Shown here: one piece after another, positions 12,253-33,175 of the stretch
Numbering within the stretch: the first letter of the stretch is position 1
Layout: each line of letters opens with the position of its first letter
Source of the DNA: Gemmatimonadales bacterium
GTDB lineage: Bacteria; Gemmatimonadota; Gemmatimonadetes; Palauibacterales; Palauibacteraceae
Reading direction: 5' to 3'
Length of the DNA: 34,454 nucleotides
NCBI GenBank assembly: GCA_009841005.1
Contig: VXMR01000033.1
Coordinates: forward strand, 1 to 34,454
Notes under the pieces: model-generated
What the model was told of the DNA's origin: nothing
Databases searched by the model: none
The model's input: only the letters and a program-made list of their open reading frames with translations
Translations under genes and position numbers: made by a program

Positions 12253-13049
12253 GCCGCGCAATCCGTGGGAGCCCGGGTCCGGCCGTAGTCCGTGTCGATG
12301 TCCCTCGGGTAGAACCCCTCGGGCTGACGAGGCGCCGGCGCCCGCGGCGGCGGGTTGTCCCGCGCCAGCGTGTGGTCCGTCGCGACATCGCCCTCGAAGG
12401 GAGCCTGCCGGTGGCACTCGAGGCACCAGCCCATCGTTAGCGGCGCCCACTGGTAGACCCGGTCCATCTCCTCGACCGGACCATGGCAGTCCTGGCACTC
12501 GAGGTTCCGCACGTGGGCCTTGTGGCTGAACTGCACGAACTCCGGCAGCTTGTACACCCACTCCCATTCGATCGGCTCGCCGCGCGCCTCGTACTGGCGC
12601 AGCTCCTCGACCGGCGGCAGCCCCGTGCCCGCGATGCGGTGGCACCCCATGCAGACCTCGAGCGTCGGCACGACGCCCGACACCGACCGCTCCGTCCCCA
12701 CATGGCAGTACATGCAGTCGATCTGGAGGTCCGTCACGTGGAAGCGGTGGTTGAACGGGATCGGCTGCTCGGGTCCGCGGCTCGCGTTCTCGTGGTCGTA
12801 GATCGCACGCCACTGCGCCGGCATCGTCGCGAGATCCTGCTCTTCGGCGAACTGCGCGGCCGCGGCCGCCGTCTCGCCCTCGCCCGCGGCCTGCGGATCC
12901 GCGCTCTCCTGGACGTGCAGGAAGGAGGACGGATCGAGGCTCGCGGCAGCGATCTCGAGTTCGCCGGTTGAAGGCCGGTACAGCGCCAGAGCGGTGGCGC
13001 CGAGGGCCGCGACGAGGACGCCCGCGGCCACGCGAGAGCTTATCTTCAT
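12240..13049 (-). CDS. actA: alternative complex III pentaheme cytochrome c subunit ActA
   Basis: First gene of the act operon; a membrane-anchored pentahaem cytochrome c of 269 residues. An N-terminal hydrophobic segment (residues 7-24) serves as signal or anchor. Five CXXCH sites are visible: CMYCH (112-116), CMGCH (133-137), CQDCH (185-189), CLECH (209-213) and CAACH (264-268). Additional His residues in NHRFH and FSHKAH are likely axial ligands. The ATG at 13049 is preceded by GAGAGG at good spacing. An open frame to 13190 without a better start is not favoured. The stop overlaps the actB start by 13 nt. Confidence 0.95.
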   Translation of the reverse strand: MKISSRVAAGVLVAALGATALALYRPSTGELEIAAASLDPSSFLHVQESADPQAAGEGETAAAAAQFAEEQDLATMPAQWRAIYDHENASRGPEQPIPFNHRFHVTDLQIDCMYCHVGTERSVSGVVPTLEVCMGCHRIAGTGLPPVEELRQYEARGEPIEWEWVYKLPEFVQFSHKAHVRNLECQDCHGPVEEMDRVYQWAPLTMGWCLECHRQAPFEGDVATDHTLARDNPPPRAPAPRQPEGFYPRDIDTDYGRTRAPTDCAACHY

Positions 13050-13199
13050 CCGCCTCTCTGAGGGGGAATCGACGATGTGAGTCGCCCGGCAGCCTCCGCC
13101 GGCGGAAGCCCGGGTCGCGAACAAGGTAAAGCCCGCCCCGGTGGATGCAACCGTAGCCGGGACCCGCCGATCCGGCGCCCGCCGGAGCACCCCCCGAGG

Positions 13200-13228
13200 T
13201 TGACCGATTCGGCTCGTTCCTTTAGCAT
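13200..13228 (+). promoter_or_regulatory. sigma70-type promoter of the tRNA cluster
   Basis: TTGACC (13200-13205) and TAGCAT (13223-13228) are separated by 17 bp, which places the transcript start about 45 bp before tRNA-Val. This is the only clear promoter pair I see in front of the cluster. The rest of 13050-13279 holds no convincing gene. Confidence 0.6.
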
Positions 13229-13279
13229 TGTGTCGTCCGAGCGGGCTCCCACCCGGGGTCCGCTCGTCTTGTCTTCGGG

Positions 13280-13353
<74 letters not shown>

Positions 13354-13370
13354 TCGAAACGCCGCTGCAG

Positions 13371-13445
13371 GGGGCTGTAGCTCAGTCTGGTTAGAGTGCC
13401 GGTCTGTCACACCGGAGGTCGCGGGTTCAAATCCCGTCAGCCCCG
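13371..13445 (+). tRNA. tRNA-Asp (GTC)
   Basis: Acceptor GGGGCTG pairs with CAGCCCC, discriminator G. The anticodon stem CCGGT/ACCGG encloses loop CTGTCAC with anticodon GTC. The T loop is TTCAAAT. CCA is not encoded. It lies 17 bp after tRNA-Val. Confidence 0.96.
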
Positions 13446-13467
13446 TTCCAAAAAGAGTGTCGAGCGA

Positions 13468-13541
13468 GGGGCCGTAGCTCAGTTTGGGAGAGCGCTTGAA
13501 TCGCACTCAAGAGGTCGCGGGTTCAAATCCCGCCGGCTCCA
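13468..13541 (+). tRNA. tRNA-Ala (CGC)
   Basis: The anticodon stem CTTGA/TCAAG encloses loop ATCGCAC with anticodon CGC. The acceptor GGGGCCG pairs with CGGCTCC and includes the G3:U70 wobble that identifies alanine tRNAs, which supports the assignment independently. A T-rich run follows the gene. Confidence 0.95.
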
Positions 13542-13621
13542 CTTTTTCGTCGTCGCGTCCACCCCCGGCACCCCCCGCGAGCCCTCTCGCCGGGTTCGCC
13601 CCGGGTAGCGGCCGACGGCTC

Positions 13622-13693
13622 GCCACCGTAGCTCAGGGGTAGAGCACCGCATTCGTAATGCGGCGGTCGTCGGTTCAAATCCGACCGGTGGCT
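13622..13693 (+). tRNA. tRNA-Thr (CGT)
   Basis: Acceptor GCCACCG pairs with CGGTGGC, anticodon stem CCGCA/TGCGG with loop TTCGTAA (anticodon CGT), T arm GTCGG/CCGAC with TTCAAAT. The spacer behind it (about 13703-13730) can form a GC-rich hairpin. Confidence 0.96.
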
Positions 13694-13757
13694 TTGAAGG
13701 ACCCCTCCGCCGACAGCCGGCAGGCCGGAGGCTCTGGAGGGAGAGGGAGCAGGATAC

Positions 13758-13830
13758 GCGGGTGTAGCTCAGTTGGTAGAGCGCAACCTTGCCAAGGTTG
13801 AGGTCGCCGGTTCGAATCCGGTCACCCGCT
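13758..13830 (+). tRNA. tRNA-Gly (GCC)
   Basis: Acceptor GCGGGTG pairs with CACCCGC, anticodon stem CAACC/GGTTG with loop TTGCCAA (anticodon GCC), T arm GCCGG/CCGGT with TTCGAAT. All stems are complete. Confidence 0.96.
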
Positions 13831-13894
13831 TCTTCGCCGCCGGCTCGCGCGCGAGCCCGGCCCCCGCGCCCAACGCGCGGTCCGCAGTACCCCT

Positions 13895-13968
13895 CGGGGC
13901 GTGGCTCAGTCCGGTAGAGCGCTGCGTTCGGGACGCAGAGGTCCCCGGTTCAAATCCGGGCGCCCCGA
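13895..13968 (+). tRNA. tRNA-Pro (CGG), island attachment target
   Basis: Acceptor CGGGGCG pairs with CGCCCCG, anticodon stem CTGCG/CGCAG with loop TTCGGGA (anticodon CGG), T arm CCCGG/CCGGG with TTCAAAT. Its 3' terminal 17 bp (13951-13967) recur at 14071-14087. Accessory genes begin directly after it, so it is the likely integration target of the island. Confidence 0.96.
13951..13967 (+). repeat. att-like direct repeat, copy 1 (tRNA-Pro 3' end)
   Basis: CAAATCCGGGCGCCCCG, covering part of the T loop, the T-stem 3' strand and the acceptor 3' strand of tRNA-Pro. It is identical to 14071-14087. The position and extent are typical of attachment sites used by tyrosine recombinases. Confidence 0.7.
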
Positions 13969-14070
13969 TTCCCGCCCGCCTGGGCAGTTTTGGCCGGGCG
14001 GACTGTTTCGTTCGTCTGGGCTATCCCGCCGCCCCCCGAGATTAGGCGGGCCGCCGCAGGCGGTCGTAGC

Positions 14071-14087
14071 CAAATCCGGGCGCCCCG
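14071..14087 (+). repeat. att-like direct repeat, copy 2
   Basis: Exact 17-bp copy of the tRNA-Pro 3' end, 120 bp downstream of it. Flanking bases differ on both sides and no second tRNA body is present, so it is not a tandem tRNA duplicate. It marks either the edge of an earlier insertion or an attachment core left after excision or tandem integration. Confidence 0.7.
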
Positions 14088-14275
14088 GCCCGGTCAACGC
14101 GCTGTTTTTTTCGCCCATCGCTGACCGCGCCAGCGGTCGCGGATCCAGATGCCGCCCAGAACCCAGGCGGATTCCGACCCCGCCGGTGCGCACGTGCTCC
14201 CGCAGCCCGTCACCCATGTTACCTTGCGGTCCTCGAACACGGGTGGACGTTGGCCAAGGCGAGTCTGGACGACCC

Positions 14276-17014
14276 ATGAATGCCGTAGAAATCGAAGAGG
14301 CTGTCTCCGCGCTCGCCGCCGAGCCTTTCGATCCTGCGGAGTTTCCCTTTGCCTTCCTTGAGGCGTTCGGAAACAAGGAAACCACCATCAGGCGGCTCCG
14401 CACGGGCACGACGAATCGGTCCGACGTCGGCGGGGTCCTCCAGCGAAGCAACATCCACATCAAGGTTGCCTCTCAAGGCGAAACCGCGGTCGCGCTGGAC
14501 ACGCTAAGGGAGAGCCCCGAAACTCCGCGAGCCAAGGCAAAATTCATCTTGGCGACCGACGGGCAGGAGTTCCACGCCGAAGAACTTGCCAGCGGCGACA
14601 TACTGGTCTGCGACTACGCGGATTTTCCCGATCACTTCGGCTTCTTCCTTCCGCTAGCTGGAATCACGACCGTCCGGCAGATTCGCGAGAGCGCCTTCGA
14701 CATCAGGGCGACGAGTCGGCTGAATCGACTCTACGTCGAGCTCCTGAAGGAGAATCCCGAGTGGGAGACCCCGGAACGCCGCCACGAAATGAATCACTTC
14801 ATGGCGCGCCTCATCTTCTGCTTCTTCGCCGAGGACACCGATATCTTCCCCAGCCAAGCGAGGTTCACGCGCACCATCGAGCAGATGACCATGGCCGATG
14901 GATCCGACACCCCCGAGGTGATTGATCGGCTCTTTGGTGCAATGAACACCCTCGACGAGGATCGGGTGGGGTCCGACCTTCCCCGCTGGGCAGCGGCGTT
15001 CCCCTTCGTGAACGGCGGGCTCTTCGCGGACGCGGCGGAGGCTCCGCGGTTCAGCCGGATTGCACGCTCCTACCTCCTTCACATCGGGAATCTCGACTGG
15101 AAGAAAATCAACCCGGACATCTTCGGATCGATGGTCCAGGCGGTCGCGGTCGAGGAAGAACGCGGCAACCTTGGCATGCACTACACGAGCGTGCCGAACA
15201 TCTTGAAGGTGCTGAATCCGCTCTTCCTTGACGATTTGCGCGAGAAGCTGGAGGCGGCGGGGAACAACGGTCGCAAGCTCCTCAATCTCAGGAACCGCAT
15301 GGCGCGGATTCGCGTGTTCGACCCGGCCTGTGGTTCCGGCAACTTCCTTGTGATCGCCTACAAGCAGATGCGGGCGATCGAGGCAGAGATCAACGGTCGA
15401 CGCGGGGAACGTGAGCGTAAGTCTGACATCCCGATCAGCAACTTTCGCGGGATCGAGGTGGCAGATTTTCCCGCCGAGATCGCCCGTCTCGCCCTTGTCA
15501 TCGCCGAGTACCAGTGCAACGTGAATTACCTCGGGCAGCGGGAGGCGGTGGCCGTCGTCCTTCCGCTCGACAAGGACAACTGGATCACCTGCGCCAACGC
15601 CCTGCATGTAGATTGGAGCCGAGTCTGCCCGCCCACGGGAACGGGGGTCAAACTCGTCTCCGACGACCTCTTTCAGACGCCGCTGAATCAGCCTGAGATC
15701 GATTTCGAGCACGAAGGCGGGGAGACCTACATCTGCGGGAATCCGCCTTACCTCGGGAGCCAATCGCAGACCCCCGAGCAGAAGGCTGACCTCAAGAGCG
15801 TGTTTGACGGCCGGACGACGGGGTGGAAGTCGCTTGACTACGTCGCCGGCTGGTTCCTAAAGGCTGCCGACTACGGTGCTCATACGCGGGCGGTTTCGGC
15901 CTTCGTGGCTACGAATTCGATTTGCCAGGGACGCCAGGTGGCGACGCTCTGGTCGCTTATCCTTGGGGCTGGCCACAGGATTACCTTCGCGCATACCAGC
16001 TTCAAGTGGACGAACCTCGCGAGTCACAACGCCGGTGTTACGGTGGCGATTGTGGGCATATCCAACCGGCCCGGTCCCGTTCGTCGGCTTTACTCCGAGG
16101 GGCTTGATGGCGTCACTACCGTACGCGAATCGACAAACATCAATCCCTATTTGGTCTCTGGTCCGGATGTCTTGGTGCGTCTCCGTAGGCAGCCGATGGC
16201 GGATGTGTCCAGGATGAGCTTTGGCAACATGCCGAACGACAGCGGGCACCTCCTCCTGGATCGTCGCGAGGCCGCCGATGCGATCGAACGAAATGGCGTG
16301 AGCCCACGTTTCATTCGGGTGTTCGTGGGCTCGAACGAGTTTATCCATGGCGCGCAAAGGCGATGCGTCTGGGTCACCGATGAAGACTGTCCGAAGGCAA
16401 CAGAAAACGAGTGGCTCGCTGGGAGGTTCGAGGACGTGCGTGATCAGCGAGCAGGGTCTCCTCGCGCCACGACCCGACAGCTTGCCAACACACCCCATCG
16501 ATTCGGAGAGGTGCGCCAAGCTGGCTCGGAGACCGCCATCATCGTTCCCAGGCATTCATCGGAACTCCGCGACTATCTTCCCGTCGGATACATGGCGCCC
16601 GGCACGATCATCGCCGACTCAGCCGTTGCTCTCTTCGATGCGCCGCTCTGGCATTTGGCGCTTATCGCCTCACGCCTCCATCTGGTGTGGATCGCGACGG
16701 TCTGCGGCAAGATCGAGACTCGATTCCGCTACTCGAACACCCTCGGTTGGAACACTTTCCCCGTGCCCGTACTCACGGTGAAGAACAAGACGGATCTGAC
16801 GGAATGCGCTGAGAACATTCTGCTTGCGCGCGAGGCGCACTTCCCTGCGACGATTGCCGACCTCTACGCCGCCGACAGCATGCCGGAGAATCTCCGCGCT
16901 GCGCACGACCGAAACGATGAAGTGCTTGAGCGCATCTACATCGGGCGGCGTTTCCGAAACGATACTGAGCGGCTGGAGAAGCTGTTCGAGTTGTATACGA
17001 AGATGGCCAATTGA
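14276..17014 (+). CDS. MmeI-like class I SAM-dependent DNA methyltransferase
   Basis: Large DNA methyltransferase (912 residues, close to the MmeI/type IIL length), probably the modification subunit of the three-gene set that follows. Seen: SAM-binding motif FDPACGSGNFLVIAYKQ (about residue 348), catalytic NPPY (489-492, N6-adenine type), a central helical spacer, and a C-terminal region probably holding target recognition. The N-terminus resembles the MmeI nuclease domain, but where that family has D...ExK I read only IHIK, so the built-in nuclease may be inactive. ATG 14276 was chosen because upstream sequence is GC-rich and runs through the att repeat and tRNA-Pro. The helicase follows after 45 bp. 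Function is inferred from motifs and context. Confidence 0.88.
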   Translation: MNAVEIEEAVSALAAEPFDPAEFPFAFLEAFGNKETTIRRLRTGTTNRSDVGGVLQRSNIHIKVASQGETAVALDTLRESPETPRAKAKFILATDGQEFHAEELASGDILVCDYADFPDHFGFFLPLAGITTVRQIRESAFDIRATSRLNRLYVELLKENPEWETPERRHEMNHFMARLIFCFFAEDTDIFPSQARFTRTIEQMTMADGSDTPEVIDRLFGAMNTLDEDRVGSDLPRWAAAFPFVNGGLFADAAEAPRFSRIARSYLLHIGNLDWKKINPDIFGSMVQAVAVEEERGNLGMHYTSVPNILKVLNPLFLDDLREKLEAAGNNGRKLLNLRNRMARIRVFDPACGSGNFLVIAYKQMRAIEAEINGRRGERERKSDIPISNFRGIEVADFPAEIARLALVIAEYQCNVNYLGQREAVAVVLPLDKDNWITCANALHVDWSRVCPPTGTGVKLVSDDLFQTPLNQPEIDFEHEGGETYICGNPPYLGSQSQTPEQKADLKSVFDGRTTGWKSLDYVAGWFLKAADYGAHTRAVSAFVATNSICQGRQVATLWSLILGAGHRITFAHTSFKWTNLASHNAGVTVAIVGISNRPGPVRRLYSEGLDGVTTVRESTNINPYLVSGPDVLVRLRRQPMADVSRMSFGNMPNDSGHLLLDRREAADAIERNGVSPRFIRVFVGSNEFIHGAQRRCVWVTDEDCPKATENEWLAGRFEDVRDQRAGSPRATTRQLANTPHRFGEVRQAGSETAIIVPRHSSELRDYLPVGYMAPGTIIADSAVALFDAPLWHLALIASRLHLVWIATVCGKIETRFRYSNTLGWNTFPVPVLTVKNKTDLTECAENILLAREAHFPATIADLYAADSMPENLRAAHDRNDEVLERIYIGRRFRNDTERLEKLFELYTKMAN

Positions 17015-25245: not shown

Positions 25246-26040
25246 CTACATCTGTTGCTGAGTCGAACCGACGCCGTCTCGCGGGCACACCGATCCCATG
25301 CAGCATGCGTGGCACTCAGGCGCGCGCCCGGCGTGACACCAAGTGTTCCCGATCCACCATGCCGGCCAGTCGAGTTCCCCCGGCCACTCCGGGCTGAGTT
25401 CCCGCGCGTGCAGCTGGAGTCGAAGCGCCTGCTTTTCCTTGGTCGAGCGTAGCTCGCTGTGATCGAGCCGATCGAGTAGGCCCAGCCGCTCGAACACCCG
25501 CAGGACGTGCGTATCGACCGCGATGTCCGGCATGGGCCTGGTGAGGCGGATACCGAAGTCGCGAATCAGGATGTTCACGGCCATGTTGGCGATCTTCAGG
25601 CCAACACCGTCGAAGGCCAGGAACCGTCTGGCCACGGCAGCGCCGCTGCTCCCGGCGGCCCAGATGCGTGAGGCGTCCCCGCCGTACCTGTCCCAGATGT
25701 GCCGGACGGCCGCGGGAAGCAGTTGCTCCATCTTGGTGGCCAGCCGGTGGCCGGACGACGCAAGTACGGAGGTCCACGTGTCCTTGTCGAGCCCCAGCAG
25801 CGTGTCGATGTCGAAACCCCCGGCCGCCTCGCGGATCGCGTGTGGAAGGCTCCATGCGATGTCGGCTTTCGTTTGCCGATCCGCGACGCAGGCCAGCACG
25901 AACGCGTGCGGATAACGCTCGAGGTCGTTCACGAGGTCACGCGCGGCAGGCTCGATGTCGATGCCGGAAACGCCATCCTCCCGCTTGATCGACTCCGCCC
26001 CGAACAGCTTTAGGCGGGAAACGATGTCATCTACCGACAT
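25246..26040 (-). CDS. endonuclease III-like HhH-GPD DNA glycosylase, copy 1
   Basis: 264 residues from ATG 26040, which is preceded by GGAGAG. An upstream ATG at 26070 adds ten residues. Helix-hairpin-helix plus catalytic region: FDGVGLKIANMAVN contains the Lys that matches the Schiff-base Lys of endonuclease III, and IAVDTHVLRVFERLG the catalytic Asp. A C-terminal cysteine cluster C-x7-C-x2-C-x5-C (WCHAGRAPECHACC...C) would hold a [4Fe-4S] cluster; classical endonuclease III has x6 in the first gap. Base-excision activity is predicted, substrate unknown. A second copy, about 78% identical by eye, lies at 32393-33175. Two small genes lie immediately upstream on the same strand. Confidence 0.82.
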   Translation of the reverse strand: MSVDDIVSRLKLFGAESIKREDGVSGIDIEPAARDLVNDLERYPHAFVLACVADRQTKADIAWSLPHAIREAAGGFDIDTLLGLDKDTWTSVLASSGHRLATKMEQLLPAAVRHIWDRYGGDASRIWAAGSSGAAVARRFLAFDGVGLKIANMAVNILIRDFGIRLTRPMPDIAVDTHVLRVFERLGLLDRLDHSELRSTKEKQALRLQLHARELSPEWPGELDWPAWWIGNTWCHAGRAPECHACCMGSVCPRDGVGSTQQQM

Positions 26041-26074
26041 GGATCTTCGCTCTCCGCTGTCGACCGGCACCCCC

Positions 26075-26754: not shown

Positions 26755-26867
26755 CGCGACAGAGTCCCGCGCTCGCACCTCAGGCGCGCCGCCGTCTCGG
26801 TCACGTTCCAGCCGACCTCGTCCATGCTCTCGCCGATCAGTTCGCCCAGGTGCGGAGGGTTGAACAT
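26755..26867 (-). pseudogene. HigA-like antitoxin remnant (copy 1)
   Basis: Only the N-terminal part of an XRE/HigA-type antitoxin remains: it reads PPHLGELIGESMDEVGWNVT and continues to CERGTLSR, where similarity stops. About 113 bp are closely similar to the higA copy at 33258-33371 (roughly eight mismatches by eye). The rest of the helix-turn-helix and the C-terminus are missing. Confidence 0.65.
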
Positions 26868-26918
26868 CGGACCCACGCGCTCGCCGCCTGCCTCAGCGCG
26901 GAACAGATACACAGCGTC

Positions 26919-27854
26919 TCAACTCGGCAGATTCGCCACGGATGGTATGAGAACACGTGTCGTGTTGAGGGCACTCACGGGGTATAGCAGGATCAAGATG
27001 TTGTACGTGGTATCGAACGCTTCCGCGACGCACTCATGTGGCAGCCCGTTGGCGTCAGCGAACGACAACGACATCGGTCTGGTCATTCTGCGGCCAATGG
27101 GAATGACCGGCCAGAGAGGGTGGTCGGGTGTTATCGCTTCGATGGAGGGGCGACCGAAGCGGGCGAGGAACGAGGGCGACGGTTCGATGCGTCGAACTGT
27201 CGCGCGGGCACCGGCATCCTCGGTGGCTTCAAGTCCGTTCAGAACAAGAACCAGACACGGGTTCGGGTTCGTGCGGGCGTACTCACGAACCGAGGCGTAA
27301 ACCGAAGCGCCGAATCTCTTGGCGAGTGTGATCGGTGTCTTGATCTCCAAGGGAAAATCGGCTGCGTTTTCGGCGAAGGTACGGTCCTTGAACAGCAAGA
27401 ACCGCGCGAAGTTGTTGGCCTCACGTTCGAACTGATCCGCGACGGTCGGGTTTAAGGTCCTGCGGCAGTCTTGGAAGAATCGAAACATCTTGCGATGCCA
27501 GGGAAGGTCGTGATGTCCCACCTCGTGCAGCTTCAAGAAGGTCTGCTTGGCTTCCACAAGGGTGTCGTCGATATGGATGACGGCAGCAGTAGCATCGTAC
27601 ACGCCGAACACCTTGCTTATCGCCGTTTTGACGAGGGCGCCCGTATCGGCCGTCTTGCCCTTCACGTAGGAGACAATTGCGGCCGGGTCGAACGCGCTGG
27701 CTTGGACAACGTGGACCTTAGCAGCGGAGAGGATATCGTTGACGGGGACGGGGAATTGATTCCAAGCATCTGCGCGGTCGAGGAGTCGGCGGGCCTGCCC
27801 CTCGACCGCGCGGAGGTCCGCGGGGTCGAGCCTACTGTCGTCAGGTCGTATCAT
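26919..27854 (-). CDS. ImmA/IrrE family metallopeptidase (CapP-like)
   Basis: 311 residues. The zinc protease motif HEVGHH (residues 110-115) and the third-ligand segment FEREANNFARFLL (Glu about 145) define the ImmA/IrrE family. The C-terminal half is beta-rich and could be a sensory domain. Such proteases cleave a partner XRE repressor; ImmA acts on ImmR and CapP on CapH, the latter after DNA damage in CBASS operons. Here the gene overlaps the XRE gene upstream by 14 nt and both face a ubiquitin-like operon. I infer that it relieves repression of that operon. The signal it senses is not visible in the sequence. Confidence 0.88.
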   Translation of the reverse strand: MIRPDDSRLDPADLRAVEGQARRLLDRADAWNQFPVPVNDILSAAKVHVVQASAFDPAAIVSYVKGKTADTGALVKTAISKVFGVYDATAAVIHIDDTLVEAKQTFLKLHEVGHHDLPWHRKMFRFFQDCRRTLNPTVADQFEREANNFARFLLFKDRTFAENAADFPLEIKTPITLAKRFGASVYASVREYARTNPNPCLVLVLNGLEATEDAGARATVRRIEPSPSFLARFGRPSIEAITPDHPLWPVIPIGRRMTRPMSLSFADANGLPHECVAEAFDTTYNILILLYPVSALNTTRVLIPSVANLPS

Positions 27855-28206
27855 GAGTTCGCCCCTTACTGCGTATGAATTGAAGGAATCGTAGCAACTC
27901 TGATTCCTCTTCCTCCGTCAAATTGTGCTCCGCGAACGTCGCCACGCGGCCGTGGCGGTCATCGGCCGCACGTTCCGAGGAAGGCATCAGGTAGCCGGCC
28001 TTGATCATCAGATTCTCGAAGCTGATGGCGTAGATCTCGGCCAGGGAATGAAGGACGTTGGGGGAAGGTTTGCGGATCTTGTTGTGCTCGATTTGACTGA
28101 GGTAGGCGTTCGAGACTCCCTTCTCGGTAGCCTCCTCAACGTCACGCAGGGTCATCTTCCGGTCCCGACGGATGGAGGCAAGGTACTCTCCGAGTGTGGG
28201 CTTCAC
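27841..28206 (-). CDS. XRE family helix-turn-helix repressor (CapH-like)
   Basis: 121 residues from GTG 28206, chosen because GGAGGG stands seven bases upstream and the product then begins just before the HTH. The helix-turn-helix covers about residues 5-65 (LGEYLASIRRDRKMTLRDVEE, VSNAYLSQIEHNKIRKPSP). A charged C-terminal tail with EEEESELLRFLQFI may dimerise or hold the cleavage site. It overlaps the ImmA-like gene by 14 nt. An inverted repeat between this gene and the divergent Ubl operon is its probable operator, which would allow autoregulation and repression of the operon. Confidence 0.88.
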   Translation of the reverse strand: MKPTLGEYLASIRRDRKMTLRDVEEATEKGVSNAYLSQIEHNKIRKPSPNVLHSLAEIYAISFENLMIKAGYLMPSSERAADDRHGRVATFAEHNLTEEEESELLRFLQFIRSKGRTHDTT

Positions 28207-28267
28207 GCTGAATCCCTCCGAAGTCGGGTGCACGTGCACGTCCTCGTCGATGGCGTTCCCGATCCTC

Positions 28268-28341
28268 AGTCTAGCTCTGACCGGGATGAGGATCAAGCAT
28301 GCTCGACCGATGCTTGACATCACAAGCACGCTCGGTAAGAT
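28268..28341. promoter_or_regulatory. divergent promoters with shared inverted-repeat operator (XRE/Ubl operon)
   Basis: Plus strand: TTGACA (28314-28319), 16 bp, TAAGAT (28336-28341), reading toward the Ubl gene. Minus strand: TTGATC (28296-28291), 17 bp, TAGACT (28273-28268), reading toward the XRE gene. The perfect inverted repeat CAAGCAT-N9-ATGCTTG (28294-28316) overlaps both -35 boxes. A related half-site CAAGCACGCTCGG (28323-28335) lies in the plus-strand spacer. This is the layout expected of a repressor that controls both transcripts. Confidence 0.65.
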
Positions 28342-28488
28342 TAGCTGATCGACTTCTGGGGCTGACGTCCTAAGGGGGAACGGCGGTTCCATGAGGAGGG
28401 GGGCCGGTCGGGTGAATCGAGATTCTTGACAACGTGGCCCAGAGGCGCGGAGCCCAGGGCGAAACGGACCCATCTGAGGAGGTGTCTC

Positions 28489-29100
28489 GTGTCGCGGTTG
28501 AAGATTGGAAAGGTGTCGGAAGGAGAGCGCTGCTGGGGCGTGGAGCTGTTCGACGAGAGCGGCGCCCTGCTGCGAAGCCTGGAGGGAGTGGGTGCGGACG
28601 AGGTGAGGTCCGTAGCAGAGATCTTGAAGTCCGAGGGGCCGGGGGCGCTGGTGCTGGAGGACAGCAAGGTCGAGCCGGATGAGGCGGCTTGGGTGATTGA
28701 GAAGGTGCGGGGCGGCTGGGCGGTTCGGTTCACGCCGGTTGCAGCGACCTTATTCGAGCTGCTCGTGAAGCTGGATGCCAAGGGCGAGCCGTCCAAGGCG
28801 GCCGAGGAGGCGATGGCGTTGGTCAAGAAGTGCCTCGATGACGCTGACATCGTTTGGGAACCGCCGATTACGATCAAGATCGACGGCGAACTACATGAGG
28901 CGCGGGAAAACCCGATGTCGGCGAATGACATTCTACGCCTAGGCGGTCTCGATCCCGGCAGCAACTACCTGGTCGAAATCCGGGACGGCGAGCGGATCAA
29001 GTACGAGGGGAACGGCGAGCAGCAGATCTTCCTGTACGAGGGAGCGGTGTTCGTTGGCCACTATACCGGGTCGAAGGGCGTTTCGCATTTCCACGGATAG
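28489..29100 (+). CDS. ubiquitin-like (multiubiquitin-type) modifier protein
   Basis: 203 residues. The C-terminal 77 residues (from about 127) match the bacterial multiubiquitin-type beta-grasp fold: ITIKIDGELHEA, MSANDILRLGGLDP, YLVEIRDGERIKYEG and EGAVFVGHYTG. The protein ends in a single glycine (SHFHG), so it could be activated without processing. The N-terminal 125 residues form a separate domain of unknown function with a helical segment (TLFELLVKLDAKG). The GTG start at 28489 follows a perfect GAGGAGG six bases away; the longer frame to 28426 lacks this. It is the first gene of an operon with E2-like and JAB-E1 proteins. Confidence 0.78.
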   Translation: MSRLKIGKVSEGERCWGVELFDESGALLRSLEGVGADEVRSVAEILKSEGPGALVLEDSKVEPDEAAWVIEKVRGGWAVRFTPVAATLFELLVKLDAKGEPSKAAEEAMALVKKCLDDADIVWEPPITIKIDGELHEARENPMSANDILRLGGLDPGSNYLVEIRDGERIKYEGNGEQQIFLYEGAVFVGHYTGSKGVSHFHG

Positions 29101-29113
29101 CTGGGGGGACCAG

Positions 29114-29497
29114 ATGCTTGTTGGAGGAGCGCTCTTCGCGAAGCAACTGCGGGCCGCCGGGATGGAGGTCGAGGAGTTGGGCGACCATCACATCATGATC
29201 CCGGCGTACTGTGTGCCCGAAGGTAGGTTCGAGGGGTTGAAGGTGGACATCGGGATCGTCGTACCGTCCGACTTTCCGCTGTCGCCGCCGGGCGGCCCGC
29301 ACGTTCACAAGCTGATCCACCCGAACAACCCGGACGGCCCGCATCCCTCCGGGCACGTTCATGCGAGCAAAGACCACAGCGTGCACTTCAAAGACGGCTG
29401 GCAGTATTGGAGCAGACCCCACCCGAACTGGACATCGGGTGCAAGGAACGCGGTGCGGTACATGGAGCACGTCCGGGCGCTTTGGGAGAGCCAGTGA
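29114..29497 (+). CDS. E2/UBC-like protein lacking a recognisable catalytic cysteine
   Basis: 127 residues, start ATG 29114 behind a GGGGGG ribosome-binding site, 13 bp after the Ubl gene. The central strands and turn KVDIGIVVPSDFPLSPP, followed by LIHPNN and the Trp-rich C-terminal helices, resemble the E2 ubiquitin-conjugating fold. The only cysteine is in AYCVPE (residue 33), ahead of the FPLSPP turn; the active-site Cys of E2 enzymes comes after the HPN motif. The region after HPN is His-rich (HPSGHVHASKDHSVHF). It may act as a non-catalytic adaptor, or catalysis may use another residue. It overlaps the E1-JAB gene as GTGA. Confidence 0.72.
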   Translation: MLVGGALFAKQLRAAGMEVEELGDHHIMIPAYCVPEGRFEGLKVDIGIVVPSDFPLSPPGGPHVHKLIHPNNPDGPHPSGHVHASKDHSVHFKDGWQYWSRPHPNWTSGARNAVRYMEHVRALWESQ

Positions 29498-30990
29498 GTT
29501 CAGTCGACTACAGCGTGGTAATGACGTCCGAGGTCGCTGCTGTGTTGAGACGGCATCTTCTGCAACACATCAGGAATGGGGAGCGGCAGGAGGATCTCTG
29601 TTTCGCCTTGTGGAAGCCGAGCACCGGTGAAACGCGAACAACCGCCGTGTTGACAGAGGTTGTGCTTCCGGCCACGAACGAAAGGCGGCTGCACGGCGGC
29701 GCCAGCTTCTTGCCGAACTACCTGGACAGGGTGGCGGAGGCGGCGATGTCGAAGAACGCCGGTATCGCACTGCTGCACAGCCACTTCACTCCGGGCTGGC
29801 AGGGAATGAGCGATGACGACGTGGACACGGAGCGAAGCACGGGGCCTTCAATATTTGGGGAGACGGGCTTACCCCTGATCGGTCTGACCATGGGAACTGA
29901 CGGGGCACTGAGCGCCCGTTTCTGGACCCGGGTTGGGCGACGGGAGTACGAACGGCGCTGGTGTGGGAGCGTTCGCGTAGTCGGGGATGATTTCGACGTA
30001 ACGTTCATGGAAGAGCTGGCACCTGCGCCGAGGTTCAAGGAAATCCTGAAGAGGACCTACTCGGCATGGGGCACGGAGAAGCAACACACGCTAGCTCGAC
30101 TGCATTGCGGCGTGATCGGAGTCGGAAGCGTGGGCGCGATCGTGGCGGAGAGCTTGGCCCGGATGGGTGTTGAAACCATCAGCTTGATCGACTTCGACAC
30201 GGTGGAAGAACACAACCTGGATCGGCTCCTGCACGCGACCGTCGATGATGTTGGGCGGTTCAAGGTGGACGTCGCGGGAGAGCAGTTACTCAAGCACGCG
30301 ACCGCCGACGATGTAGACGTGAGGGTGTACGGGGAATCAGTGACGAGGGCGGACGGCTTACGAGCGGCGCTGGATTGCGACGTGCTCTTCAGTTGTGTGG
30401 ATCGACCCTGGCCGAGACAGGTGTTGAACATGGTAGCCTTCGCACACCACATCCCGGTCGTGGACGGAGGCGTTCACGTCCGCGTCAAGCCGGACGGATC
30501 CATGCGAGGAGCTGAGTGGGGTGCACACGTCGCGATGCCCGGAAGGGCGTGCCTGGAATGCCTCGGCCAGTTCGATCCGGCCAACGTCACGCTAGAACGG
30601 CTAGGCCTGCTTGACGATCCGACGTACATCGAGCGGCTTCCGGAAGACCATGAGTTGCGACGGAACGAGAACGTGTTCGGGTTCGCGCTGTCTGTAAGCG
30701 GGATGATGGTGTGTCAGTTCTTGAGCTTGATCGTGCAACCCGCTGGGATGGGTGACCCGGGGGTCCAAACCTATCACTTCGTAACCGGGATGATGGACAG
30801 CGAGCTACGTGCTGCGTGTGCTGCGGAGTGCCCGTACTGCGAGCACATGGGCACGGGTGATCGCTTCCCATTCCCCGTGGTCGAGGCAGACGAAGCGAAG
30901 GTTGAGTCGAGCGTTGAGGCGGTGCCGTGGTTGGCGAAGTGGCGGCGTAGGGTGAGGAATTGGCTGAGACGATTGGCTCGAACCAGGTAG
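29494..30990 (+). CDS. JAB-E1 fusion (deubiquitinase-like plus ThiF/E1 adenylating enzyme)
   Basis: 498 residues in two domains. The N-terminal domain has a JAB/JAMM metalloprotease site: Glu in TEVVLP (about residue 58), HSH (95-97), Ser106 and Asp109 in GMSDDD. The C-terminal domain is ThiF/E1-like with GVIGVGSVG (206-214), LIDFDTVEEHNLDRLL for ATP and Ub-like tail binding, and two CxxC pairs (CLEC 353-356; CPYC near residue 446) that likely bind zinc as in MoeB. The GTG start overlaps the E2 stop by 3 nt (GTGA). It would adenylate the Ubl C-terminus, and the JAB domain would mature or remove the modifier. The extreme C-terminus is basic. Confidence 0.88.
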   Translation: MSSVDYSVVMTSEVAAVLRRHLLQHIRNGERQEDLCFALWKPSTGETRTTAVLTEVVLPATNERRLHGGASFLPNYLDRVAEAAMSKNAGIALLHSHFTPGWQGMSDDDVDTERSTGPSIFGETGLPLIGLTMGTDGALSARFWTRVGRREYERRWCGSVRVVGDDFDVTFMEELAPAPRFKEILKRTYSAWGTEKQHTLARLHCGVIGVGSVGAIVAESLARMGVETISLIDFDTVEEHNLDRLLHATVDDVGRFKVDVAGEQLLKHATADDVDVRVYGESVTRADGLRAALDCDVLFSCVDRPWPRQVLNMVAFAHHIPVVDGGVHVRVKPDGSMRGAEWGAHVAMPGRACLECLGQFDPANVTLERLGLLDDPTYIERLPEDHELRRNENVFGFALSVSGMMVCQFLSLIVQPAGMGDPGVQTYHFVTGMMDSELRAACAAECPYCEHMGTGDRFPFPVVEADEAKVESSVEAVPWLAKWRRRVRNWLRRLARTR

Positions 30991-31493
30991 CGAGGAGGGA
31001 TGGTGGTAGGCCCCGTCGCGACGGTCACGGCCAGTGCCGGCGCACCGGCATACTCGTTCTCGGACGCAGGAGCTGTGCAATCCGTCGACCCCCGGTTAGA
31101 TCCGATGGAGTGTCAACGACAGGAGACCCTTCGGCATCTCTCGAGGGTCAGCCAGATACGATTGCAGCGATCGAGCCGGGATGCTACGCTGCTGAACGTA
31201 GGCAGATGACAGCGAACGGAGACCGCCGTGAAGAGCGGTGGCTAGCGTACCACCAGCGCCTGGACAGGACCGCGAACGATCTGACCTCCACGCAAGAAGC
31301 GGATACGGGAGCGCCCCGTCCCTCCGCTTCTTCGTGTTTCTGGGCGTGCACACCCTCGGGAGGAGCGGCATCGCCGCTCGCCATGTCGCGGCGCAAGCCT
31401 CAACGCTTGCGGTCGCAACGTCCGGGAACATGGAAAAGAGGAACATGACGTATCGGGTGGGTGTACGACGATCGAATCAGAGAGAGACCAAGG
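30991..31493. other. gene-poor spacer with one strong hairpin
   Basis: About 500 bp between the E1-JAB gene and the NYN promoter. Open frames here (such as 31000-31209) lack good start signals, conserved motifs or support from neighbours. The one clear structure is the hairpin at 31290-31335. Confidence 0.55.
31290..31335 (+). other. strong stem-loop in the spacer after the Ubl operon
   Basis: AAGAAGCGGA (31294-31303) pairs perfectly with TCCGCTTCTT (31323-31332). ACG/CGT extends the stem outside one bulged base, and ACGGG (31305-31309) pairs with CCCGT (31315-31319) inside it. No T-run follows, so it is not a standard intrinsic terminator. It could be the 3' end of the Ubl transcript, a small RNA or a protein-binding site. 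Confidence 0.5.
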
Positions 31494-32392: not shown

Positions 32393-33175
32393 CTAAGCGA
32401 CTCCGTCTCTCGGGCACACCAATCCCATGCAGCATGCGTGGCACTCAGGCGCGCGCCCAGCGTGACACCAAGTCTTGCCGATCAGCCATACTGGCCAGTC
32501 GAGTTCCCCCGGCCACTCCGGGTTGAGTTCGCGAGCGCGCAGCGGGAGCCGGAGTCGCTGCTTGTCCTTCGGCGCCCGCAGCGTGCTGTGTTCGAGCCTG
32601 CCGAGAAGGCCGACCCGCTCGAACACGCGCAGGACGTGGGTATTAACCGCGATATCCGGCGTCGGCGCCGCGAGTTCGATACCGAAATCGCGAATCAGAA
32701 TGTTCACGGCCATATTGGCGATCTTCAGACCCACACCGTCAAATGCCAGGAACCGTCTCGCCACGGCAGCGCCGCTGCTCCCGTTGGCCCAGATACGTGA
32801 GGCGTCCCCGCCGTATTTGTCGCCGATGTGACGGATGGCCGCGGGAAGGAATCTCTCCATATCCGTAGGCAGCGGGTGACGAGACGACGTGATGGCGGAG
32901 GCCCACACGCTGTCGGGAAGCCTCAACAGTATGTCGAACTCGAAACCCGATGCGGTCTCGCGGATCGCGTGGGGAAGACTCCATGCGATGTCGGCCTTCA
33001 TTTGCCGATCCGCGATGCAGACCAGCACGAACGCGTGCGGATAACGCTCCAGGTCGTTCACGAGGTCGCGCGCGTCGTCCTCGATGTCGATTCCGCCCAC
33101 CCCGCCCTTCCGTTCGAGCGATTCCGCCCCGGACTGCTTCGGACAGGAGACGATGCGGCTCGCCTGCATCCGCAT
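32393..33175 (-). CDS. endonuclease III-like protein, copy 2, catalytic Asp replaced by Asn
   Basis: 260-residue paralogue of the gene at 25246-26040, about 78% identical by eye over the shared part, same strand, so the two are direct repeats. The HhH and Lys region (FDGVGLKIANMAVN) and the C-x7-C-x2-C-x5-C cluster are kept. The motif that reads AVDTHVLRV in copy 1 reads AVNTHVLRV here (codon AAT), removing the Asp needed for catalysis in endonuclease III. The first residues (MRMQAS) come from the C-terminus of a HigA-like gene rather than from the native glycosylase start, so this copy has probably lost its own start. It may be a non-catalytic DNA-binding protein or a decaying gene. Confidence 0.7.
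   Translation of the reverse strand: MRMQASRIVSCPKQSGAESLERKGGVGGIDIEDDARDLVNDLERYPHAFVLVCIADRQMKADIAWSLPHAIRETASGFEFDILLRLPDSVWASAITSSRHPLPTDMERFLPAAIRHIGDKYGGDASRIWANGSSGAAVARRFLAFDGVGLKIANMAVNILIRDFGIELAAPTPDIAVNTHVLRVFERVGLLGRLEHSTLRAPKDKQRLRLPLRARELNPEWPGELDWPVWLIGKTWCHAGRAPECHACCMGLVCPRDGVA

Follow-up and report, generated by a model that had tools for sequence, protein, structure and literature searches.

What kind of system do five adjoining genes of a Gemmatimonadales bacterium encode, in which a ubiquitin-like (Ubl) conjugation operon lies divergent from a repressor and protease pair, and is it a new one? The genes occupy positions 26919-30990 of the window, the whole stretch of 34,454 nucleotides analysed here (contig VXMR01000033.1, assembly GCA_009841005.1). 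A preliminary description, made from the letters alone, read them as a Ubl pathway controlled by an XRE/ImmA pair resembling CapH/CapP and knew of no named system of just this composition. With good confidence, the cassette is best explained as a Bub-like (type 6e) Ubl conjugation operon controlled by a repressor-protease switch of the CapH/CapP kind. Judged from its sequences, it is a diverged relative of Bub that stands in a sister clade of the reference Bub operons. The five genes are as follows.

26919-27854, minus strand: CapP-like ImmA/IrrE (Peptidase_M78) metalloprotease, 311 residues, with an intact HEVGH zinc motif
27841-28206, minus strand: CapH-like XRE/helix-turn-helix (HTH) repressor, 121 residues, GTG start at 28206, 14-base overlap with the CapP gene
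28489-29100, plus strand: Ubl (BubA-like) precursor, 203 residues, GTG start at 28489
29114-29497, plus strand: E2-like protein (BubB-like, Prok-E2_E), 127 residues, with W96-x3-S100 and without a conserved Cys
29494-30990, plus strand: JAB-E1 fusion (BubCD-like), 498 residues

A check of the open reading frames (ORFs) bore out every coordinate in the preliminary description, including the overlaps, the 13-base gap between the Ubl and E2 genes, the GTGA overlap at the E2/JAB-E1 junction and the divergent layout. For the XRE gene, the GTG at 28206 was judged the best start, with GGAGGG seven bases upstream. The proposed composition, a Ubl, E2 and JAB-E1 operon adjoining a CapH/CapP-like pair, was likewise upheld by structure models, by Pfam (Prok-E2_E 3.8e-7 for the E2, ThiF 2.1e-31 for the E1, Peptidase_M78 3.4e-8 for the ImmA protein, HTH_19 4.3e-9 for the XRE protein) and by PADLOC (capP 7.2e-14, capH 4.3e-9).

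The JAB-E1 chain ties the operon to Bub. Searched as a single sequence against solved structures, it matched Citrobacter BubCD first (E 9.8e-25, residues 8-341), with the next E1 family at 5.4e-11 and Cap2 at 4.8e-4 at best; a profile of 14 relatives reached BubCD at 2e-36 (positions 8-405) and the next match at 1.3e-17. The JAB is fused to the E1 in the window as it is in Bub, and the match to BubCD over both domains agrees with the earlier claim that deconjugation and activation are joined in a single chain. The gene order also has a history. In the excerpts of Iyer 2006 (PMC1779556), type 6e comprises a polyUbl, an "inactive" E2/RWD-like protein, a JAB-E1 fusion and a metal-binding protein, and sll6052 of Synechocystis is named as its Zn-finger protein. 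The type 6e gene order is now called Bub; Bub operons are credited to Ye 2026 and Gong 2025 in the excerpted text of PMC13373217, and structure-search matches show that solved structures exist for BubCD, BubB and BubA. The same text gives the CapS accession WP_001567865.1 together with a Bub operon, and on Enterobacter pEho8-1 (L056) we found WP_001567865.1 upstream of a Multi_ubiq and Prok-E2_E fusion, a JAB-ThiF protein that closely resembles the Citrobacter BubCD fragment, and DUF6527. The supposed lack of a named system with this makeup was therefore not sustained, since type 6e has been in print since 2006 (PMC1779556). We rejected a wholly new system on the BubCD match, the type 6e listing and the appearance in print of Bub with CapH/CapP (PMC13373217).

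Where, then, does the window stand within this family? Relatives of the E1 were collected from genome contigs (14 loci), from the window's phylum (17/395 genomes at E <= 1e-40, its own included), from a second phylum (3/296 and 4/395 genomes in two overlapping draws, centre genomes included), from a third (4/235 genomes, centre included) and from plasmids (146 records, 10 opened). The window's phylum offered 19 places, of which 17 were taken; the window itself and G191, identical in coordinates and score to G300, were left out. Second contig copies (L035-L037, L046) and short versions of the same places were dropped from the tree, as were L040, L015 and L079, which are broken or partial. The tree of 43 E1s, with a midpoint root and long branches at L056, L054, L050, L047, L048 and L078, falls into two sides at a branch with values of 100/99. 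Clade I (nine rows) holds the Enterobacter BubCD and Synechocystis pSYSX, and clade II (34 rows) holds the window, whose E1 thus lies outside the reference BubCD clade under this midpoint root. Some rows are near-copies (e.g. L003/L004/L005/L012, L052/L059, L044/L045, L008/L009), and the counts given here refer to loci and should not be read as independent events. DUF6527, sought within 3 kb, neighbours 8/9 clade I loci vs 1/34 in clade II, where the lone case (L074) lies on the convergent strand (Pfam 3.6e-8) and two loci have < 500 bases downstream. We do not claim clade II as undescribed; the 544-operon set of PMC13373217 may include it.

Three side observations belong to this sampling. The record named Williamsia sp. 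(L004) falls among Bacteroidota on the E1 tree, and some genomes occur both in its phylum draw and in that of L003; the name of this metagenome-assembled genome (MAG) is probably wrong. L040 (G087:C18:24103-24888) is an additional E1 gene, broken and with two in-frame stops, on a contig that also carries an intact copy. Among 50,697 phage records no tblastn match to the JAB-E1 appeared at 1e-5, and none of 32 pattern matches on viral contigs was a relative.

Conservation across the tree agrees with an intact enzyme. The parts of the chain are:

JAB-E1, JAB half: E33, H95-x-H97, S106 and D109
JAB-E1, ThiF/E1 half, residues 189-374: GVGSVG, D233, D235, R244, K257 and D303
JAB-E1, probable Zn cysteines: C353, C356, C442 and C446

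All 43 E1s keep H95, H97 and D109 of the JAB half and D233, D235, N241, R244, K257, D296, D303 and Y378 of the E1 half. S106 is present in 31/34 clade II and 9/9 clade I E1s, E33 in 34/34 and 4/9 (the other five are gapped), and C446 in 34/34 and 7/9. The pair C353 and C356 is kept by 34/34 clade II and 8/9 clade I E1s; the exception is the Enterobacter BubCD, so the window's clade retains Zn cysteines that the Enterobacter-type BubCD has lost. In 14 relatives aligned earlier, the residues listed above are invariant, C442 included. No further Cys reaches 90% in the 34 clade II E1s, and an E1 thioester site is therefore not evident. Tyr378 (30625-30627), 22 residues past the CxxC, might be a nucleophile or a structural residue; its position is presumably close to where ThiF-type E1s carry the catalytic Cys.

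How could such an E1 hand over its Ubl? The E2 offers one candidate residue.

29411-29413, plus strand: codon of E2 Ser100, candidate nucleophile from its conservation among E2 relatives

The E2 is a Prok-E2_E protein without a conserved catalytic Cys and with a WxxxS serine, as in Bub. Its predicted model (predicted local distance difference test, pLDDT, 82.8) has BubB (9eae_C) as the best match both in Foldseek (E 0.035) and in VIA-align (Z 10.7 over 112 residues; next 9.3). Among 43 E2s (loci L014, L040 and L047 yielded none), no alignment column has five or more Cys, and 42, from both clades, have Ser in the S100 column; W96 and S100 are invariant in 13/13 E2s of a smaller set. On this model, the protein has a ubiquitin-conjugating (UBC) fold with a conserved Ser in place of the conserved Cys. 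Bub conjugation reportedly runs through an oxyester relay, and a Ser-His protease is said to take part.

The same absence of a conserved Cys from all 43 E2s could also mean that the E2-like protein is catalytically dead, and that the E1-JAB activates and releases a Ubl which acts non-covalently (e.g. by oligomerising) or on a small molecule. Type 6e E2s are termed inactive and RWD-like in the excerpts of PMC1779556, and multi-ubiquitin proteins form filaments, as the titles of structures 9d5b and 9d59 say. We consider this unlikely, however, as a Ser at one place in 42/43 E2s of both clades fits an active site, and so does the selection on the E2 (ratio of nonsynonymous to synonymous rates, dN/dS, 0.22). 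The oxyester conjugation reported for Bub also tells against a dead E2.

Returning to the conjugation operon, the Ubl precursor divides into these parts.

28489-28857, plus strand: Ubl residues 1-122, N-terminal region, no fold assigned
28861-29079, plus strand: Ubl beta-grasp domain, residues 125-197, from the predicted model and structure matches
Ubl residues 197-199: conserved end Gly-Val-Ser, followed by a four-residue tail (200-203)
29086-29097, plus strand: four codons past the -GVS end (HFHG; QLDR in L002, a same-genus MAG), predicted to be trimmed

The preliminary description had staked its reading on a beta-grasp fold in the 203-residue protein, and structure prediction found one at residues 125-197. 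The AlphaFold2 model, built from 13 sequences, has an overall pLDDT of 60.7, with about 90 for residues 131-170. Its best structure matches are bacterial multi-ubiquitin proteins (Z 9.9/9.7) and BubA (Z 8.1), while ubiquitin itself scores lower (Z about 7). The window's Ubl has a single beta-grasp domain and does not match Pfam Multi_ubiq, though the relative L003 does.

The C-terminal end sets clade II apart. Among 28 separately encoded clade II Ubls, Val-Ser or Val-Ala ends 22 and Thr-Ser, Ala-Ser or Val-Val stands at the same place in four, so that 26/28 stop at [VTA]-[SAV]; this count leaves out the E2-fused Ubls (L073, L079) and the loci in which no Ubl was called (L014, L043, L044, L045, L054, L078). 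The remaining two, the window and L002, have Gly-Val-Ser and then four unlike residues, HFHG or QLDR. The reference ends differ, being ...TEG or NG: in clade I, ...T-E-G with or without a tail was seen in 5/8, some of these Ubls being picked by position only, and the solved BubA construct 155-229 (from its title) has Gly as its last residue in Enterobacter numbering. We rejected the Gly at the C terminus of the window's Ubl as its active end, since it falls within the unconserved tail and the L002 protein ends in Arg. Ser199 is the probable last residue of the mature protein; because the precursor runs four residues past the conserved end, the fused JAB probably trims this tail.

Residues 1-122 of the Ubl are found, among the aligned loci, only in the window and L002, with a dN/dS of 0.48, faster than the other genes. 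In Pfam this region gave only Clp_N at 0.009, below the Clp_N cut-off. A reading of it as DUF2188-like or as an internal repeat was unsupported, hhalign aligning only eight residues. Small DUF2188 genes do occur near Bub-like operons (L010, 6676-6915, minus strand, Pfam 1.2e-22; by annotation or profile also L057, 4100-4327, and L049, 3078-3368).

What would switch the operon on? The gene of an HTH repressor overlaps that of an M78 protease with HExxH, and the pair adjoins the operon, the same layout that the excerpts of PMC13373217 describe for CapH/CapP of CBASS and other immune operons. The intergenic region holds two further features.

28293-28317, no strand: candidate CapH operator, perfect inverted repeat TCAAGCAT-N9-ATGCTTGA (8-9-8, 25 bp)
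28314-28341, plus strand: candidate sigma-70 promoter for the Ubl operon, TTGACA-16-TAAGAT, its -35 box overlapping the right arm of the repeat

The repeat occurs once in the window at up to three mismatches, against 0.09 expected; genome-wide it is the sole site at 0-1 mismatches, and one other has two. It lies inside a run of 33 bases identical to L002 (28288-28320), the next longest run being 16 in the aligned region 28150-28520; 201/284 columns of the intergenic alignment are identical. The promoter is the only such site in 26800-31100. Taken together with its position, the repeat is likely the CapH operator. The CapP match aligns residues 21-206 with positions 9-164 of the 242 in the PADLOC capP model, and the C-terminal part of the window protein, unlike that of CapP proper, has diverged; a sequence search of PDB gave no match at 0.1. 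The protease of a Bacteroidota relative (L003) is a full-length CapP (PADLOC 1.6e-66).

The association of CapH/CapP with Bub is already known: CapW or CapH plus CapP lies beside 219/544 Bub operons in the excerpted text of PMC13373217. In our set, with an ImmA neighbour taken as an HExxH protein within 4.5 kb of the E1, one was found at 19/34 clade II and 5/9 clade I loci (some near-copies), and the recurrence predicted for XRE/ImmA homologues beside Ubl operons thus held for the ImmA protein. The divergent HTH and ImmA layout is also present on Synechocystis pSYSX. The ImmA label switches ten times on the E1 tree, and the module has therefore been gained and lost.

Alternatively, the XRE/ImmA pair might be a separate module, an island regulator or one of antitoxin type, with no link to the Ubl operon beyond adjoining it. 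The 15/34 clade II loci without a neighbouring ImmA count in favour of this and against our reading; in 14 of them the sequence upstream of the E1 extends for 4.9 kb or more, in L014 for 163 bases. In addition, the excerpts of PMC10233336 describe an ImmR-like repressor that also controls an integrative element. Even so, this alternative is very improbable. The pair and the operon form one 4.1-kb block shared by two islands with mostly different other cargo, L002 keeps the repeat at the operon's promoter, and CapH plus CapP is a published Bub neighbour (PMC13373217). An ImmA at 24/43 loci looks far above chance, with a background taken from the window genome only (two M78 proteases in 3.16 Mb).

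The partner of the protease varies among relatives (XRE, fused HTH or sigma-like protein), which differs from CapH/CapP as described. Several Bub-like operons have, ahead of the neighbouring ImmA gene, a sigma-factor-like gene with a small middle gene in place of the XRE gene (L003, 5142-6957; L072, 6628-8417; L058, 1846-4081; L061, 1799-3536; also L004, L005, L009 and L012). Pfam backs a sigma factor for L058 only (Sigma70_r2 5e-7); the Bacteroidota and Paracoccus genes tested had no credible Pfam match and were called by eye.

Does the cassette travel as a unit? In the window, core genes (alternative complex III, by eye) are followed by a tRNA array and then an island. The last tRNA of the array is a tRNA-Pro (13894-13969), and 17 bases of its 3' part recur at 14071-14087, about 100 bases downstream, possibly the remnant of an island attachment site. 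The island carries a type IIG restriction enzyme (PADLOC REase_MTase_IIG 3.9e-277), a Ppl-like ATPase (9.2e-31), a TCAD9/APH kinase-like protein (Pfam) and, by eye, helicase and GIY-YIG-like genes. An island occupies the same tRNA array in L002, a Gemmatimonadetes MAG. With blastn, the two share the flank at the tRNA array (12773-14143, 91.7%) and a single 4.1-kb match that consists of the five genes alone (26879-30953, 85.4%); the other matches are an HhH-GPD gene and a weak 128-base stretch (15113-15240). Because the sole large match in the island covers exactly these genes, we regard the five-gene block as a unit. Copies of the HhH-GPD-like gene flank the block in the window (25246-26070 and 32393-33175); in L002 there is one copy, after the block.

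Between the window and L002, CapP and CapH are 87% and 88% identical, and dN/dS (NG86) is 0.15 for the E1, 0.22 for the E2, 0.17 for both CapP and CapH and 0.47 for the Ubl, so all five genes are under purifying selection. A JAB-E1 of this family occurs in 3/16 listed same-genus genomes, the window's own counted, and was not found in the other 13, one of them of the same species as the window. This patchy distribution among same-genus genomes marks the operon, as far as sequence comparison goes, as mobile.

On the preferred reading, a Bub-like operon under a CapH/CapP switch, the parts would work together as follows. CapH dimers on the 25-bp repeat would block the -35 box. By analogy with CapP of CBASS, which is activated by single-stranded DNA (PMC13373217, in excerpt), DNA damage would activate CapP, leading to cleavage of CapH and derepression of the operon. 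The JAB half would then remove the four-residue tail to leave a Ubl end of ...Gly-Val-Ser, the E1 half would adenylate this end, and the Ubl would pass to E2 Ser100 as an oxyester and from there to target proteins. The JAB half may also reverse the conjugates, and the DUF6527 helper would have no part in the window's pathway. We infer from these sequences that the cassette conjugates its Ubl to proteins.

Several results weigh against this reading. The CapP match spans only about two thirds of the PADLOC model, and the promoter match taken alone is at chance level (one found vs 0.8 expected). The E2 profile reaches BubB at E 0.034 only, behind the eukaryotic-type ubiquitin conjugating enzyme 2pwq (0.0046), and a search with the single E2 sequence does not find BubB; in the haloarchaeal outlier L054, the Ser column of the E2 holds Asn, with a Ser three positions earlier. 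The Ubl has no Pfam match above the curated cut-off and none in PADLOC or NCBIfam, its best Foldseek match (E 0.006) falls short of 0.001, and its residues 1-122 have no match above a Pfam cut-off. DUF6527 is absent from 33/34 clade II loci, the window's included, and was not found in the window's whole genome (E <= 0.001); because this metal-binding partner is absent, the cassette is filed as a Bub-like sister group and not as strict type 6e. Phage protection by Bub operons, finally, had not been shown according to the excerpts of PMC13373217.

This last point leads to the purpose of the operon. It may serve a stress response, tagging host proteins after damage, and not act against phages, as those excerpts of PMC13373217 raise for Bub; we hold this a real possibility at somewhat below even chances, and it is compatible with the Bub-like reading. 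The type IIG restriction enzyme and the Ppl-like ATPase of the island, by contrast, give a defence-island setting, and the operon is patchy (absent from 13/16 same-genus genomes), as defence genes often are. A role in defence would fit these surroundings.

Other named systems resemble the cassette less. With Bil (BilABCD) it shares a Ubl, E1, E2 and JAB peptidase in an operon, but in Bil BilA, BilB, BilC and BilD are separate, whereas the window has JAB and E1 in one chain and a Cys-less E2; its Ubl and E2 match no PADLOC model, and its E1 matches BilD weakly in the ThiF part (1.9e-5, among the best 25 of 33 PADLOC families). Type II CBASS likewise has E1 and JAB activities in Cap2/Cap3; the window's E1, however, is not fused to an E2, and its Cap2 match is weak. 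No cGAS/DncV-like nucleotidyltransferase (CD-NTase) was among the PADLOC matches listed for 10 window proteins (the best 25 for two of them), and neither a CD-NTase nor an effector was seen by eye among the listed window ORFs. The absence of cyclase and effector noted in the preliminary description therefore stands, but it is normal for the Bub operons examined.

More tentatively, and with rather less than even confidence, we propose a Bub sister lineage in Gemmatimonadota, Bacteroidota, Myxococcota, Chloroflexota and actinobacterial plasmids, whose mature Ubl would end in Val-Ser or Val-Ala, whose E2 would be Ser-based and whose fused JAB would be the only protease. It would often be switched by ImmA with an exchangeable DNA-binding partner, be it an XRE repressor, a fused HTH, or an extracytoplasmic function (ECF)-sigma-like protein with a small middle protein. 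The sister clade suggests which part of Bub may be dispensable (DUF6527) and which indispensable (JAB, E1, Ser-E2 and Ubl end). The cassette would also be a second system for testing how protein tagging in bacteria might do without the usual catalytic cysteine: at about 4 kb, it is a compact object in which to ask whether a Ser-only ubiquitin-like relay can work without Cys and with a Ubl end other than Gly. If its switch answers to DNA damage as that of CBASS does, the cassette would bear on the question of whether phage infection triggers bacterial protein tagging by way of such damage.

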